From positions 1-36,479 of the forward strand of contig LBTS01000016.1 in assembly GCA_000992165.1 (NCBI GenBank): 36,479 nucleotides of DNA, in the 5' to 3' direction. The position numbers and the translations under genes were made by a program. How positions within the stretch are numbered: the stretch's first letter is position 1; every line of letters begins with the position of its first letter. Below the pieces are notes generated by a model. The model did no database searches, was not told where the DNA came from, and was given only the letters and a program-made list of their open reading frames with translations. The DNA comes from Candidatus Moranbacteria bacterium GW2011_GWC2_37_8 (lineage in GTDB: Bacteria; Patescibacteriota; Minisyncoccia; Moranbacterales; GWC2-37-73). Shown in pieces: positions 8,739 to 36,479 of this stretch.

Positions 8739-8770
8739 GAATTAGGAGGTATGATGTAGGAAGTAGGGGA
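8719..8770. repeat. Heptad repeat array at the MFS gene 3' end
   Basis: Words AAGTGGT, AGGGTAG, GAATTAG, GAGGTAT, GATGTAG, GAAGTAG follow each other at seven-base spacing, overlapping the last codons of the MFS gene and ending at the MITE-like element. Confidence 0.6.
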
Positions 8771-8993
8771 TCATGCGTAATAAATGGTTCTAAAATTATA
8801 CAGGCATGCGATTTTGAAAACTTTTTTGCTATCCCGTTTTCTTTTTAGGCCAATTGATACGAGAGTATCTCTGAGTTTTTGGATAGTGAGCATTTTATCC
8901 AAAAGCGTGCTCGAAAAAGGAAACGGGATAGCAAAAAAAAAACGATATGCGTGTCACTAACCTTAATTAATTGGAGCTGTGTATTGTGTATGA
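8771..8993 (+). mobile_element. MITE-like element, copy 1
   Basis: About 223 bases with imperfect outer ends (TCATGCGTAATAAATGGTTCT at left, reverse complement of the right end) and strong inner inverted repeats TTTTTTGCTATCCCGTTTTC / GAAACGGGATAGCAAAAAA. The core holds two hairpins: GATAC-GAGA-GTATC and TTTTGGATA...TATCCAAAA. No ORF. Two other copies (10752, 25535) share core and ends. Confidence 0.8.
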
Positions 8994-9043
8994 ACCAAAT
9001 TAGGGAATTATTTATCTTTTAATTTGTTTAGTAAAAAAATATT

Positions 9044-9547: not shown

Positions 9548-9563
9548 CAGGGCTCAAGTCATT

Positions 9564-9626
9564 AGTAATCAGTAACCAGTAACCAGTAACCAGTAACCAG
9601 TAACCAGTAATTAGTAATCAGTCAAC
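9564..9626. repeat. Tandem heptamer array AGTAAYC (nine units)
   Basis: Nine consecutive seven-base units, five of them identical AGTAACC, the others AGTAATC, AGTAATT and AGTCAAC. This is the cleanest example of the heptad family in the window. It lies between the GHKL-like and cupin genes. Confidence 0.95.
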
Positions 9627-9652
9627 ATAATAAATAAAGAATATTTAAATAT

Positions 9653-10738: not shown

Positions 10739-10751
10739 GAATAATTTCGAA

Positions 10752-10947
10752 TTATACGCAATGCATGGTTCCAATTGATTAAAGTTAGTGACGCACATAT
10801 CGTTTTTTTGCTATCCTGTTTCCTTTTTCGAGCACGCTTTTGGATAAAATACTCACTATCCAAAAGCTCAGAGATACTCTCGTATCAATTGGCCGAAAAA
10901 GAAAACAGGAATGCCTATACAATCTTAGAAACATGTATTGCGCATGA
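10752..10947 (-). mobile_element. MITE-like element, copy 2 (inverted)
   Basis: About 196 bases in opposite orientation to copy 1. Outer ends TTATACGCAATGCATGGTTC and the complement of GAAACATGTATTGCGCATGA match at about 18 of 23 positions. The core shares GAGATACTCTCGTATCAATTGGCC and the TTTTGGATA hairpin with copies 1 and 3. The distal inner arm is partly lost (CAGGAATGCC). Confidence 0.8.
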
Positions 10948-10981
10948 TTCGTACTTCCCCAATTTTCTTGATTTAAAATTG

Positions 10982-17746: not shown

Positions 17747-17802
17747 AAGTTACAAGTTACTAGTTACTAGTTACTAGTTACTGGTTACTAATTATTAGTT
17801 GA
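17747..17802. repeat. Tandem heptamer array TAGTTAC upstream of pilT
   Basis: Eight seven-base units (AAGTTAC, AAGTTAC, TAGTTAC three times, TGGTTAC, TAATTAT, TAGTTGA), the reverse complement of the AGTAAYC family. It ends four bases before the pilT ATG, so it forms the leader. Confidence 0.92.
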
Positions 17803-17805
17803 ATT

Positions 17806-18888
17806 ATGTCTACAGCTCACGGCGAACAAAGAATTAAAAGTTTATTACGTTTGGTTGCTCAACAAAATGCTTCCGACTTACATTTAGTGGTGGGAAGATT
17901 TCCTACTTTGCGTATGGATGGTCGCTTGTATCCATTGACTCAAGAAAGTATTTTGTCTGCTGATGATACGCAAGCGTTGACTGATGCAATCACTACTGAA
18001 GATAATAAAAAACGTCTAGTCGATGAAGGTCAAGTTGATTTTTCTTATAATTTTGAAGATAAGGCGCGTTTCAGAACTAATATTTTTTATCAGCAGGGTA
18101 ATCTTAGTATTGCCATGCGTATGGTTGCTGGGCGCATAAGAACTCTTGAAGAGCTGAATATTCCTCCGGCACTTTATGAATTTACTCGTCAAACACAAGG
18201 ACTTCTTTTGATTACCGGTCCTGTTGGACATGGAAAATCAACCACGCTTTCCGCTTTGATAGATTTCATTAATCATAATGATGATAAGCACATAATAACG
18301 ATTGAAGATCCCATTGAATATGTATATGAGCAGGATAGATGCATAATCAATCAACGAGAAATTGGTAAGGATACGAAATCTTTCCCTGATGGACTTAGAA
18401 GTGTGTTTCGAGAAGATGCTAATGTTGTTTTGATTGGTGAGCTTAGAGATTTGGACACGATAAGTACAGCTATGACTGCAGCTGAAACAGGACATTTGAT
18501 TTTAGCAACCTTGCATACCAATGATACTTCTCAAACAATTGACCGTATCATTGACGTTTTTCCTGCGCATCAACAAAATCAAGTTCGAAGTCAGTTGGCT
18601 AGCGTGCTCTTGGGCGTGGTTTCTCAGCGCTTGGTTCCTCGTGTTGGAGGAGGACGAATCCCAGCTATGGAAATAATGATGAACAATCATGCTGTAGAAA
18701 ATTTGATACGTGAAAATAAATCTTATCAAATAGATTCTGTAATTGAAACTGGCTTGAGAGAAGGAATGGTTTCATTGGATAAATCATTAGCAGATCTGAT
18801 TCAGAGAGGTCTTATTACATTGGATGACGCTATGGTGTATTCCAAAAATCATGATTATTTGCAGATGCTCATTTCTCGAAAAGATTAA
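17806..18888 (+). CDS. pilT: Type IV pilus retraction ATPase PilT
   Basis: 360 residues, the usual PilT length, without the N-terminal extension and zinc fingers of PilB. It shows ASDLHLVVGRFPTLRMDG at the start, Walker A GPVGHGKSTTLSA near residue 138 (His replaces the usual Ser, Val the usual Thr), the Asp box ITIEDPIEY, Walker B FREDANVVLIGELRD and the His box GHLILATLHTND. It depolymerises pili and produces the pulling force for motility or DNA uptake. It has its own promoter and a heptamer-array leader. Confidence 0.96.
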   Translation: MSTAHGEQRIKSLLRLVAQQNASDLHLVVGRFPTLRMDGRLYPLTQESILSADDTQALTDAITTEDNKKRLVDEGQVDFSYNFEDKARFRTNIFYQQGNLSIAMRMVAGRIRTLEELNIPPALYEFTRQTQGLLLITGPVGHGKSTTLSALIDFINHNDDKHIITIEDPIEYVYEQDRCIINQREIGKDTKSFPDGLRSVFREDANVVLIGELRDLDTISTAMTAAETGHLILATLHTNDTSQTIDRIIDVFPAHQQNQVRSQLASVLLGVVSQRLVPRVGGGRIPAMEIMMNNHAVENLIRENKSYQIDSVIETGLREGMVSLDKSLADLIQRGLITLDDAMVYSKNHDYLQMLISRKD

Positions 18889-22913: not shown

Positions 22914-23951
22914 ATGAAAAAAAATATCCATAGAAAAATATCCTCTGCTTTTGATTTTACAATTTATTCTTCAATAAAGCGGGGATTTTCTATTATGGAA
23001 TTGTTGGTAGTGATGGCGATTTTGTCTATCATGACTGGGGTTCTTTTTGTTTCAGTTGGTGATAGTTCAAAAAAGGATGCTGAAGTTGCCGCTCAGCAAA
23101 TTTCCGCACAACTCAAGGCCTTACAAAATGAGGCCTTGACTGGAAAAAGAATTGAGGTTCCTGCTAATAGTGGAACATTTATTTCTGCTTGCTATTTTGT
23201 TTTTGATACCACTGCTCTGACTTCGTATAAGGTTTCATATTTGGATTGTTCAGCTGCGCCGCAACCAATCGGAAGCGATTTGATTGTGGATTTGAAAAAG
23301 AAAAAGGTTACTGTGGATGCTCACACTATTGTTTTTACTTCTCCACGCGGAGAAGTTTCTGGTAATGACAGTGATGTTGTAATTTCATCAACCAAGGATC
23401 CAAGCGTGAAGAAATTTGTAAATATGAGTTCAGCTGGCAGCACGGCAACATCTGACACAAATTTGACTGTAACTTGCACTTCTTGGACTTACAGCGATTG
23501 GGGCACTTGCCAAGCGGATAGCACTCAAACAAGAACCATTACAAGTTCCAGTCCTGTTGGTTGCACGGGAGGAAATCCTGCTGCCTTATCTCAAGGTTGC
23601 GTATATGTACCACCGGTTGAAACTTGCACTTCTTGGACTTACAGCGCATGGGGCGCTTGTCAACCAGATAATACTCAAACAAGAACCATTACAAGTTCCA
23701 GTCCTGTTGGTTGTACTGGAGGAACTCCTGAAAGTTTAACTCAAAGTTGCACATATGTTGCGCCTGCTGGAATATGGAATCTCCAGACTAGTTGGTATAT
23801 AGGCGAATATTGTGAGTCTGGCGCGTTTACGCCTTTAGCTGGGACTAGTTGCACTATTGGAGAACCGTCACGAGACGAATATATTAATTGCACCGATCAA
23901 GGGGATGATAGTTATTGCTGTGATCGGATGGGAGGGCACTTGTGTCAGTAG
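22914..23951 (+). CDS. Pilin-like protein with two thrombospondin-type repeats
   Basis: About 345 residues (the track uses GTG at 22893; ATG at 22914 is chosen). A long leader ends KRG, then FSIMELLVVMAILSIMTGVLFVS: a PulG/GspH-like minor pilin N-terminus. After a beta-rich domain come two nearly identical repeats of about 45 residues (CTSWTYSDWGTCQ and CTSWTYSAWGACQ ... SSSPVGCTGG), resembling thrombospondin type 1 modules with spaced Trp and paired Cys. A further Cys-rich tail (SYCCDRMGGHLC) ends the protein. Such modules in other systems bind surface glycans or proteins, so a tip adhesin is a reasonable inference. Confidence 0.85.
   Translation: MKKNIHRKISSAFDFTIYSSIKRGFSIMELLVVMAILSIMTGVLFVSVGDSSKKDAEVAAQQISAQLKALQNEALTGKRIEVPANSGTFISACYFVFDTTALTSYKVSYLDCSAAPQPIGSDLIVDLKKKKVTVDAHTIVFTSPRGEVSGNDSDVVISSTKDPSVKKFVNMSSAGSTATSDTNLTVTCTSWTYSDWGTCQADSTQTRTITSSSPVGCTGGNPAALSQGCVYVPPVETCTSWTYSAWGACQPDNTQTRTITSSSPVGCTGGTPESLTQSCTYVAPAGIWNLQTSWYIGEYCESGAFTPLAGTSCTIGEPSRDEYINCTDQGDDSYCCDRMGGHLCQ
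23472..23760 (+). repeat. Tandem coding duplication (two thrombospondin-like units)
   Basis: Blocks starting at 23472 and 23623, 151 bases apart, share long identical runs, e.g. CTCAAACAAGAACCATTACA and the stretch around TTCCAGTCCTGTTGGTTG. The duplication looks recent at the DNA level. Confidence 0.85.
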
Positions 23952-25433: not shown

Positions 25434-25534
25434 GTGGAATCCATTTTTACGTATATCATTAGTGTTAATGGTGATACTTTATTTGGGCGGATTTGAAGTC
25501 CGCTCTTTTGTTTGTTTTTGTGAGTTTTAGTGGA

Positions 25535-25722
25535 TCATACGCAATTTATGGTTTTGCAATCAATAACACTAGATCAGTGTTTTGTGCAACTTTTTTGCTA
25601 GCCTATTTTGTTTTTCGGCCAATTGATACGAGAGTATCTCTGAGCTTTTGGATAGTGAGTATTTTATCAAATAGAAACTTATTGCTAATATTAATTTAAG
25701 CAGAACCATGCATTGCGTGTGA
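25535..25722 (+). mobile_element. MITE-like element, copy 3
   Basis: About 188 bases with the best-kept outer ends: TCATACGCAATTTATGGTTT and, at the right, the complement of TCACACGCAATGCATGGTTCT. The core holds CGGCCAATTGATACGAGAGTATCTCTGAGCTTTTGGATAGTGAG in common with copy 1, but the right inner arm has been lost. It fills the gap between the pilus locus and ligA; the tracked ORF at 25493 is not a gene. Confidence 0.8.
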
Positions 25723-25759
25723 CCCGTTTTAGTTTATTTGCAAAAAATTTTCAAGTTTG

Positions 25760-28068
<2,309 letters not shown>

Positions 28069-28203: not shown

Positions 28204-28491
28204 ATGTTAAGTAAAGAGGAAATATTACATATCGCGACACTTGCCAGAATTGGAGTGACTGAAAAGGATGTCGAAAAATATCAACATGATTTGTCTGAAA
28301 TCTTAGACTATTTCAAGAAATTGGAAGAAGTCGATGTTGAAGATGTTGAACCAATTGGTCACATTACTGGTATGTTGAATACTTTTCGTACAGACAAGCA
28401 TGAAGATTTTGGGTTAATTGGAAAAGAGGCTATCATGAAAAATGTGCCTGAAATTAAGGATGGATGCATTAAGGTAAAAAGCGTACTATAG
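28204..28491 (+). CDS. gatC: Asp-tRNA(Asn)/Glu-tRNA(Gln) amidotransferase subunit C
   Basis: 95-residue small subunit that clamps GatA to GatB. The family pattern is present: LSKEEILHIATLARIGVTE at the start, EILDYFKKLEEVDVEDVEPIGH in the middle, and a C-terminal VPEIKDGCIKVKSVL. Normal length. It precedes gatA; gatB is not in the window. The presence of GatCA implies that Gln-tRNA (and/or Asn-tRNA) is made by transamidation. Confidence 0.95.
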   Translation: MLSKEEILHIATLARIGVTEKDVEKYQHDLSEILDYFKKLEEVDVEDVEPIGHITGMLNTFRTDKHEDFGLIGKEAIMKNVPEIKDGCIKVKSVL

Positions 28492-28496
28492 TAATA

Positions 28497-28690
28497 AATA
28501 ACTAGCAACTAGCAACTCGTAACTCGTAACTAGTAAAATATGTATTCTTTATAACTAGCAACTAGTAACTCGTAACTAGTAACTCGTAACTAGTAAAATG
28601 GGTATCCTTTCAATTATTGCTGATTACCAGTTACTGATTACTAGTTATTTTAAGTTAGATTACCAGTTACTGATTACTAGTTATTTTAAA
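28497..28690. repeat. Long heptad array in the gatC-gatA gap
   Basis: About 195 bases consisting almost entirely of heptads. Two forward blocks of AACTAGC/AACTCGT/AACTAGT units each end in AAAATRKGTATYCTTT. Two near-identical reverse blocks follow (GATTACCAGTTACTGATTACTAGTTATTTTAA). The forward and reverse halves can pair. It separates two genes normally close together. Confidence 0.93.
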
Positions 28691-28692
28691 TT

Positions 28693-30165
28693 ATGATTAG
28701 AGATTTACATCAGAAACTTATAAATAAGGAAATTACTTCAGTTGAATTGACGGAGCAATATTTTTCAGTGATCGAAGAAAAGGATAAGGAGATTGGCGCG
28801 TATTTGACGCTAACTAAAGAACTTGCTATGCAGCAAGCCAGATTTGTTGACGAAAAGATTTCAAAAGGTGAAGAAATAGATTTATTGGCCGGAATACCAT
28901 GCGCAATCAAAGACAATCTTTGTGTGGATGGGTATCGAACAACGGCTGGAAGTAAAATTTTGGATAATTATATTGCACCTTATGATGCGACTGTGATTAA
29001 GCGGCTCAAAGAAAGCGCTGCTGTTATTCTTGGCAAGACTAATATGGATGAATTTGCCATGGGCTCATCAACTGAAAACAGCGCCTATCAAATAACAAGA
29101 AATCCAGTCGACACTTCAAGAGTTCCTGGAGGGTCTTCTGGCGGAAGTATTGCTGCTGTGGCGGCAGGTGAAGCTGTTTGGTCATTGGGAACAGACACTG
29201 GCGGCTCTATTCGTCAACCAGCTTCTCTTTGCGGAGTGGTTGGACTCAAACCGACTTATGGACGAGTTTCGCGTAGCGGCGCAATTGCTATGGCCTCGAG
29301 TCTTGATCAAATAGGACCAGTTGCGACAAGTGTAGAAGACGTTGCTATCATTTTGTCTCGCATTTCTGGACAAGACCCTATGGATGCAACTACTGCAAGA
29401 AGCGGAGATAAAAAATACGAAGACTATTTGACTGGTGATATTACTGGTAGCATTATCGGTGTTCCGAAAGAATATGTCGAAAGCTTGGAAGGTGAAATAA
29501 AAGAAGTTTTTGAAAAGTCATTGGAAAAATTCAAAAGTCTTGGCGCAAAAATTGAAACTATAAGTCTTCCGAATGCTCAGTATGCATTGCCTACATATTA
29601 CATAATTATGACAAGTGAGGTTAGTTCGAATCTCGCTCGTTTTGATGGGATTAAATATGGCTTAAAAGTGAATGACTTATCCGAATCAGTATCCGAATTA
29701 AATCCAAATGAAAACTCAAATGCAATTCCAAGAACTTTATTGGAAACATATTTGGACACTAGAAAAATTGGATTCGGCGACGAAGTTAAGAGGAGAATAA
29801 TGCTTGGAACGTACGCTCTAAGTAGCGGCTACTATGACGCATACTATGTTAAGGCTCAAAAGGTTCGAGCTTTGATTCGCAAGGATTTCGAGGAAGCTTT
29901 CAAAAAAGTTGATTTTATTTATTCTCCGACAACTCCTGAAGTTGCATTTAAGATTGGTGAAAAAACCAGTGACCCACTCAAGATGTATCTTGGTGATATT
30001 TATACTGTGACTGCAAACATGGCTGGCGTTCCAGCAATTTCATTTCCTATTGGGTTTCAAACCGTTGAAGACAAAGACCTTCCGATTGGTGGACAGATAA
30101 TGGGAAAATGGTTTGATGAAGAAGGAGTACTTAATGTGGCACATACGTACGAAATAAATAAATAG
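28693..30165 (+). CDS. gatA: Asp-tRNA(Asn)/Glu-tRNA(Gln) amidotransferase subunit A
   Basis: 490-residue amidase-signature enzyme that releases ammonia from glutamine for transfer to mischarged tRNA. The catalytic Ser-cisSer-Lys triad is visible: Lys73 in CAIKDNL, the Gly/Ser-rich GGSSGGS, and TDTGGSIRQPA with the nucleophilic Ser. The glutaminase-type tail MAGVPAISFPIGF is present. Normal length. The start codon directly follows a reverse heptad array. Confidence 0.96.
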   Translation: MIRDLHQKLINKEITSVELTEQYFSVIEEKDKEIGAYLTLTKELAMQQARFVDEKISKGEEIDLLAGIPCAIKDNLCVDGYRTTAGSKILDNYIAPYDATVIKRLKESAAVILGKTNMDEFAMGSSTENSAYQITRNPVDTSRVPGGSSGGSIAAVAAGEAVWSLGTDTGGSIRQPASLCGVVGLKPTYGRVSRSGAIAMASSLDQIGPVATSVEDVAIILSRISGQDPMDATTARSGDKKYEDYLTGDITGSIIGVPKEYVESLEGEIKEVFEKSLEKFKSLGAKIETISLPNAQYALPTYYIIMTSEVSSNLARFDGIKYGLKVNDLSESVSELNPNENSNAIPRTLLETYLDTRKIGFGDEVKRRIMLGTYALSSGYYDAYYVKAQKVRALIRKDFEEAFKKVDFIYSPTTPEVAFKIGEKTSDPLKMYLGDIYTVTANMAGVPAISFPIGFQTVEDKDLPIGGQIMGKWFDEEGVLNVAHTYEINK

Positions 30166-36170: not shown

Positions 36171-36260
36171 ATTGGCCTTCAAAATTTTGAATTTTGACCG
36201 GACAATATATGCCCGAAGGGCGATTCCTTAAAAATAGTGCTGAAACAACATCATCTAATT

Positions 36261-36296
36261 TTACTAGTTACGAGTTACTAGTTACTGATTACTAGA
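36261..36296. repeat. Tandem heptamer array TAGTTAC
   Basis: TAGTTAC-GAGTTAC-TAGTTAC-TGATTAC-TAG, another copy of the AGTAAYC family in reverse orientation, far from any gene. Confidence 0.88.
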
Positions 36297-36479
36297 AGAA
36301 GTTTCCGCATTATTAGTAGCTTTACAATTTTGGTCTATTGTGAATACGTGTGGTATGTAGTGATTAGCGGAATTGCATACTGGGCGCAGCCATCACAATT
36401 AGTCAATAAGTAGGTCGTGCATATATGCTTGCTGCATATATCACATCAAAAACGATTTCAAAGAGTTTGAAATGTTTGT

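Follow-up and report, generated by a model that had tools for sequence, protein, structure and literature searches.

The palindromic element present in three copies in the window (36,479 bp of contig C16 of G000, a Candidatus Moranbacteria-like MAG) is firmly identified as a MITE. We consider a type II MITE very likely, with an ISL3-family (ISAon1-type) transposase acting in trans on its terminal inverted repeats (TIRs). Copy number, TIRs, exact 8-bp target-site duplications, an empty site and an insertion sequence (IS) with the same ends all support the MITE assignment, which the original prediction had offered from the letters alone, with a structured repeat mobilized by an enzyme acting in trans as the alternative. 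That prediction would have been refuted by a genome search yielding just the three copies and no empty sites, or by hairpin arms without compensatory changes; we find more than three copies, an empty site and compensatory changes across the family. The element also carries a conserved structured core, which we lean towards regarding as a passive or weakly selected structure.

The predicted three copies are real, occur in both orientations and measure about 194–229 bp, with 90–95% identity across their common parts (Table 1). The true ends of the element are GGRTCATACGCAATRCATGGTTC. The outer ends originally proposed for the third copy (25535–25722) are present but were placed a few bases short, and the terminal sequences of this copy are GGATCATACGC...GCGTGTGACCC. 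It has a type IV pilin-like gene on one side and ligA on the other, and copy 1 lies about 30 bp downstream of an MFS transporter gene. At copies 1 and 2 the target duplications have eroded. An inner inverted repeat had also been described, and this is intact in copy 1, shorter on the 5′ side in copy 2 and without its 3′ arm in copy 3, where that arm and the second half of hairpin 2 are lost or decayed. The palindrome is non-random, with RNA-folding z scores of −8.6 for copy 1 and −5.4 for copy 3.

Table 1. Positions of the MITE copies and their parts in the window.
Feature	Position	Strand	Details
MITE copy 1, 229 bp	8768..8996	+	TIR pair; duplication 6/8, GAAGTAGG/AAATTAGG
Structured core of copy 1, inner inverted repeat intact	8829..8932	+	Covariance model R2, 88.9 bits
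MITE copy 2, 202 bp, opposite orientation, flanked by two genes	10749..10950	-	TIR pair; flanks 5/8 alike
Structured core of copy 2	10810..10913	-	Covariance model R2, 93.4 bits
Left target-site duplication of copy 3, GTTTTAGT	25524..25531	.	Same letters as 25726-25733
MITE copy 3 (the copy originally reported), 194 bp	25532..25725	+	Ends GGATCA...TGACCC; perfect 8-bp duplication
Left TIR of copy 3	25532..25553	+	Pattern match, 2 mismatches
Structured core of copy 3, 3′ side decayed	25598..25704	+	Covariance model R2, 47 bits, E 1.6e-7
Right TIR of copy 3	25704..25725	-	Pattern match, 1 mismatch
Right target-site duplication of copy 3, GTTTTAGT	25726..25733	.	Same letters as 25524-25531

Two further kinds of repeat occur in the window. 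Heptad repeats, (AGTAACC/AGTTACT)n, are found at many sites (9550–9638, 17748–17806, 26083–26209, 27168–27283, 28490–28693 and 36258–36324). Some of them lie within the ligA reading frame (25774–28068), where they add peptide such as TSNQQPVTS, an in-frame spread of a 7-bp repeat. Inside the pilin-like gene, a 150-bp tandem duplication (23468–23767, 83% identical) encodes a repeated CTSWTYSxWGxCQ stretch.

The element is dispersed well beyond the window. A DNA search finds 20 matching pieces in the window's genome, where the covariance-model search suggested with the original prediction recovers 19–20 core copies and the TIR pattern has 26 matches (none for the reversed control). Covariance models detect 13–41 copies per genome in three genera of the same GTDB family, a single copy in one of the two genomes of a fourth genus and none in four other genera of that family; across the order (131 genomes) they add just one further genome, with a single weaker match. 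Public records among the family genomes carry the names Candidatus Moranbacteria or Parcubacteria. A TIR scan of IMG/VR gave no match, and we found no prior report of this MITE family in the literature searched. The element had been judged to lack coding capacity, and this holds for the dispersed copies: of 61 scored contexts, 60 are flanked by a gene call on either side, and in the remaining one an ORF call is overlapped.

Mapping of the copy ends, likewise proposed at the outset, gives target-site duplications of exactly 8 bp. Across 34 different MITEs and one decayed IS, making 35 TIR-bounded elements, the two 8-bp flanks match at a mean of 5.86 of 8 positions, compared with 3.02 for shuffled pairs (z = 10.6), and the z score at any other length is at most 3.6. 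Nine of these elements have exact 8-bp duplications, and those of older copies are eroded. An empty site was also identified: the sequences flanking an insertion beside smpB in G004 align as a single piece in G011, at 96% identity, with the duplicated word present once. One 110-bp copy (C45:3064–3173) is bounded by the exact duplication TAAAATTG even though it contains no core. Unless this copy lost its core only once it had inserted, transposition itself seems able to proceed without one.

The ends of the element are shared with an IS. The window's own family contains one decayed example of 1,419 bp (G010:C1:17795–19213), with the same TIRs and an exact 8-bp duplication, CAAAAAAG; its DDE_Tnp_ISL3 domain (PF01610) matches over 240 of 240 positions (E = 1.1e-49) and is broken by one in-frame TAG. 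A MITE (L126 1–109; G010:C1:17605–17794) adjoins this IS, with a single copy of the common target word CAAAAAAG between them. Intact 1.42-kb ISs with the same terminal repeats and full ends are present in other Patescibacteria, namely G217 (L255), G421 (L257) and G240 (L258). The G240 copy has the exact duplication GATTTTTA, and the copies in G217 and G421 lack matching 8-bp flanks. At its right end, the G217 IS shares 24 of 24 bp with MITE ends in the window's genome. AT-rich 8-bp duplications and GG-starting TIRs of about 25 bp are marks of ISL3 (ISAon1-type) elements that our element shares, judged against a described ISL3-like element with perfect 25-bp inverted repeats and AT-rich 8-bp duplications (PMC5559704).

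NCBIfam models the upstream and downstream frames of ISAon1 separately, and both are matched by the G217 IS (ISAon1_downstr, 2.4e-132; ISAon1_upstream, 1.1e-22), which also matches Pfam PF01610 (1.4e-49). The same two-frame layout is found in G421 and G010. In all three genomes (L126 101–1519, L255 432–1852 and L257) a +1 overlap, conserved between them, links the two frames and suggests programmed frameshifting or coupled translation. A search for an intact transposase of this kind came up empty in the window's own genome, which is 80% complete, and in its family, where it met just the decayed G010 copy and, in G007, ISL3 fragments with different ends. The G007 IS was rejected as a partner on account of these ends (GGTTCTTCGGGAAATG). 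Five G007 contigs (C27, C30, C32, C44 and C52; L152–L156) begin with the same end of this other ISL3 element, with its different TIRs, which is a multi-copy IS breaking the assembly.

From the matching ends and the duplication length we infer that an ISAon1-type enzyme moves the MITE. The enzyme, an ISL3-family DDE transposase encoded in two reading frames, would recognize the TIRs of about 24 bp in trans and make an 8-bp staggered cut in AT-rich intergenic DNA, generating the 8-bp duplications. Catalysis by this enzyme is the putative step; the TIRs, the duplications, the empty site and the IS ends can be read directly from the DNA. The MITE interior, with its branched three-helix core in the middle, has an origin other than the IS. 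Neither the IS copies nor the genomes that bear them contain the core, which is therefore not leftover IS sequence; this makes the element a type II MITE as PMC10969869 defines the term, and the IS-derived interior of a type I MITE was not found.

The core consists of three helices: a basal stem, P1, a short hairpin with a C-GAMA-G loop and a longer hairpin. Paired substitutions in the arms of the core hairpins had been predicted from the window copies. These copies provide one clear case, in the inner repeat (CCCG/CGGG versus CCTG/CAGG, copies 1 and 2), and their core hairpins hardly vary; it is across relatives that the claim holds, with double changes in 20 of 23 pairs among 103 aligned cores. 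The covariation score of these cores is 0.448, compared with 0.206 for shuffled alignments and at most 0.108 with slid partners, on a structure-fitted alignment that favours the score. For the hairpin 3 arms CTTTTGGATA, CCCTTGACC and GTAGCTAGCC the pairing is plain to the eye. Core arms differ completely between subfamilies, and the neighbouring unpaired positions are near-invariant, with the motifs GGCC, the C-GAMA-G loop, GAG and GYGTGC present in three genera. Averaged over all columns, conservation is equal at paired (1.15 bits) and unpaired (1.18 bits) positions.

Other palindromes are inserted in the core loops and leave the conserved motifs intact. One inserted palindrome, GTCCGACCTCGGCGAACCGAGGCGAGACGG, occupies a fixed hairpin position in three MITE copies of the window's genome (L004, L013 and L017), and hairpins of g5 MITEs (L170–L175 and L187) contain an inserted element of about 60 bp, CTCGCCCCGTCAAATTG...TTTGACGGGG, as well as CCTGCCTGCCGGTAGGCAGG. 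In g5 genomes (for example L157–L162 and L177–L181) the same core is also found within a second, numerous end type, AGAAGTTACGC...GCGTAAGTCC (also given as AGAAGTTACGCATTTCG...AAATGCGTAAGTCCTA), for which no clear single duplication length was seen.

Covariation alone is no proof of function, because template-switch repair of palindromes can also yield paired changes. Palindromes are homogenized by strand switching, and this element is palindromic at each of its layers. The core could thus quite plausibly, at somewhat below an even chance, be the passive centre of a palindrome, its covariation arising without function from arm-to-arm repair by template switching together with descent from a few master copies. 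The orientation of the copies relative to genes (19 co-oriented, 20 anti-oriented, 15 convergent and 6 divergent) is in keeping with such passivity. The tandem contexts, with no bias between them (19 versus 20), gave no support to a cis-regulatory RNA, which was set aside. What passive repair leaves unexplained is the near-invariance of GGCC, C-GAMA-G, GAG and GYGTGC across three genera when the adjacent arms have turned over.

Selection on RNA should make G-T mismatches on one strand outnumber A-C mismatches. On the structure-fitted alignment the ratio is 49:17; a recount with neutral scoring, per cluster, leaves an excess in P1 only (78:30). The hint of G-U pairing is limited to this basal stem, because hairpin 2 (14:19), hairpin 3 (18:12) and the TIR control (48:44) show no such excess. 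The P1 bias relative to the TIRs is a second feature that passive repair does not account for; the lack of bias in hairpins 2 and 3 speaks for passive repair and counts against an RNA.

The P1 bias, the double changes, unpaired positions that are nearly invariant next to arms wholly different from one subfamily to another, and loops that tolerate inserted hairpins while the motifs stay are the observations favouring a functional structured RNA of a new family, with three helices and a GNRA-like tetraloop, for which the MITE would be the vehicle of spread. We regard this as possible but doubtful. Besides the unbiased hairpins, it is opposed by the lack of orientation preference, by the core-free copy with its exact duplication and by Rfam, in which nothing scores above the gathering score; the low-E Rfam matches (Phe_leader and microRNAs) fall below their gathering scores, look like generic long-hairpin matches and were set aside. 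A fuller version, in which a new structured RNA family nearly limited to one Moranbacteria family was captured by the ISL3-type MITE, amplified to 13–41 copies per genome of about 1 Mb and acts in trans or protects transcripts, seems to us slightly less likely again.

The core hairpins, whose loop and foot bases are conserved, also resemble folded single-stranded DNA sites of the IS200/IS605, REP/RAYT or attC style, bound by a Y1 or other recombinase, and Y1 transposases are present in 11 of 19 family genomes, including that of the window. We nevertheless think it improbable that the core is such a site: 8-bp duplications and long TIRs are unlike Y1 or integron recombination, and five of the six g5 genomes, with 15–41 core copies each, have no Y1 match. 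On the grounds of the duplications and these missing Y1 genes, a Y1/REP origin was rejected. Chance or an assembly artefact, which a fragmented MAG might invite, is practically excluded by the unlike contexts of the copies in 14 family genomes, several of them independently named public assemblies.

On balance we lean towards a core that is passive or weakly selected. It may have been retained through palindrome-arm repair and descent, or through weak selection on the fold of the core or its transcript. The conserved core offers a test case for separating, in mobile elements, selection at the RNA level from the repair of palindromes, with the TIRs of the MITE as an internal control. More broadly, the analysis adds to the record for small Patescibacteria genomes a MITE family that was active recently, together with the enzyme that likely moves it.

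Pneumococcal BOX and RUP elements are present in many copies and have a modular palindromic interior. The MITE can be likened to them by layout, in both these respects, in a different host. To the ISL3 family, ISAon1 type, the element is tied by 24-bp identity at one TIR, a GG start and AT-rich 8-bp duplications; the IS carries a DDE_Tnp_ISL3 transposase, whereas the MITE keeps only the ends and has a core that is absent from the IS. Bacterial type II MITEs, such as QMITE2 of Coxiella (reviewed in PMC10969869), are similarly short, AT-rich, non-coding, intergenic and foldable, with TIRs in common with an IS and with direct repeats. The Moranbacteria element differs from them in its host group, which is new among the literature searched, and in an interior that forms a covarying branched structure common to three genera.
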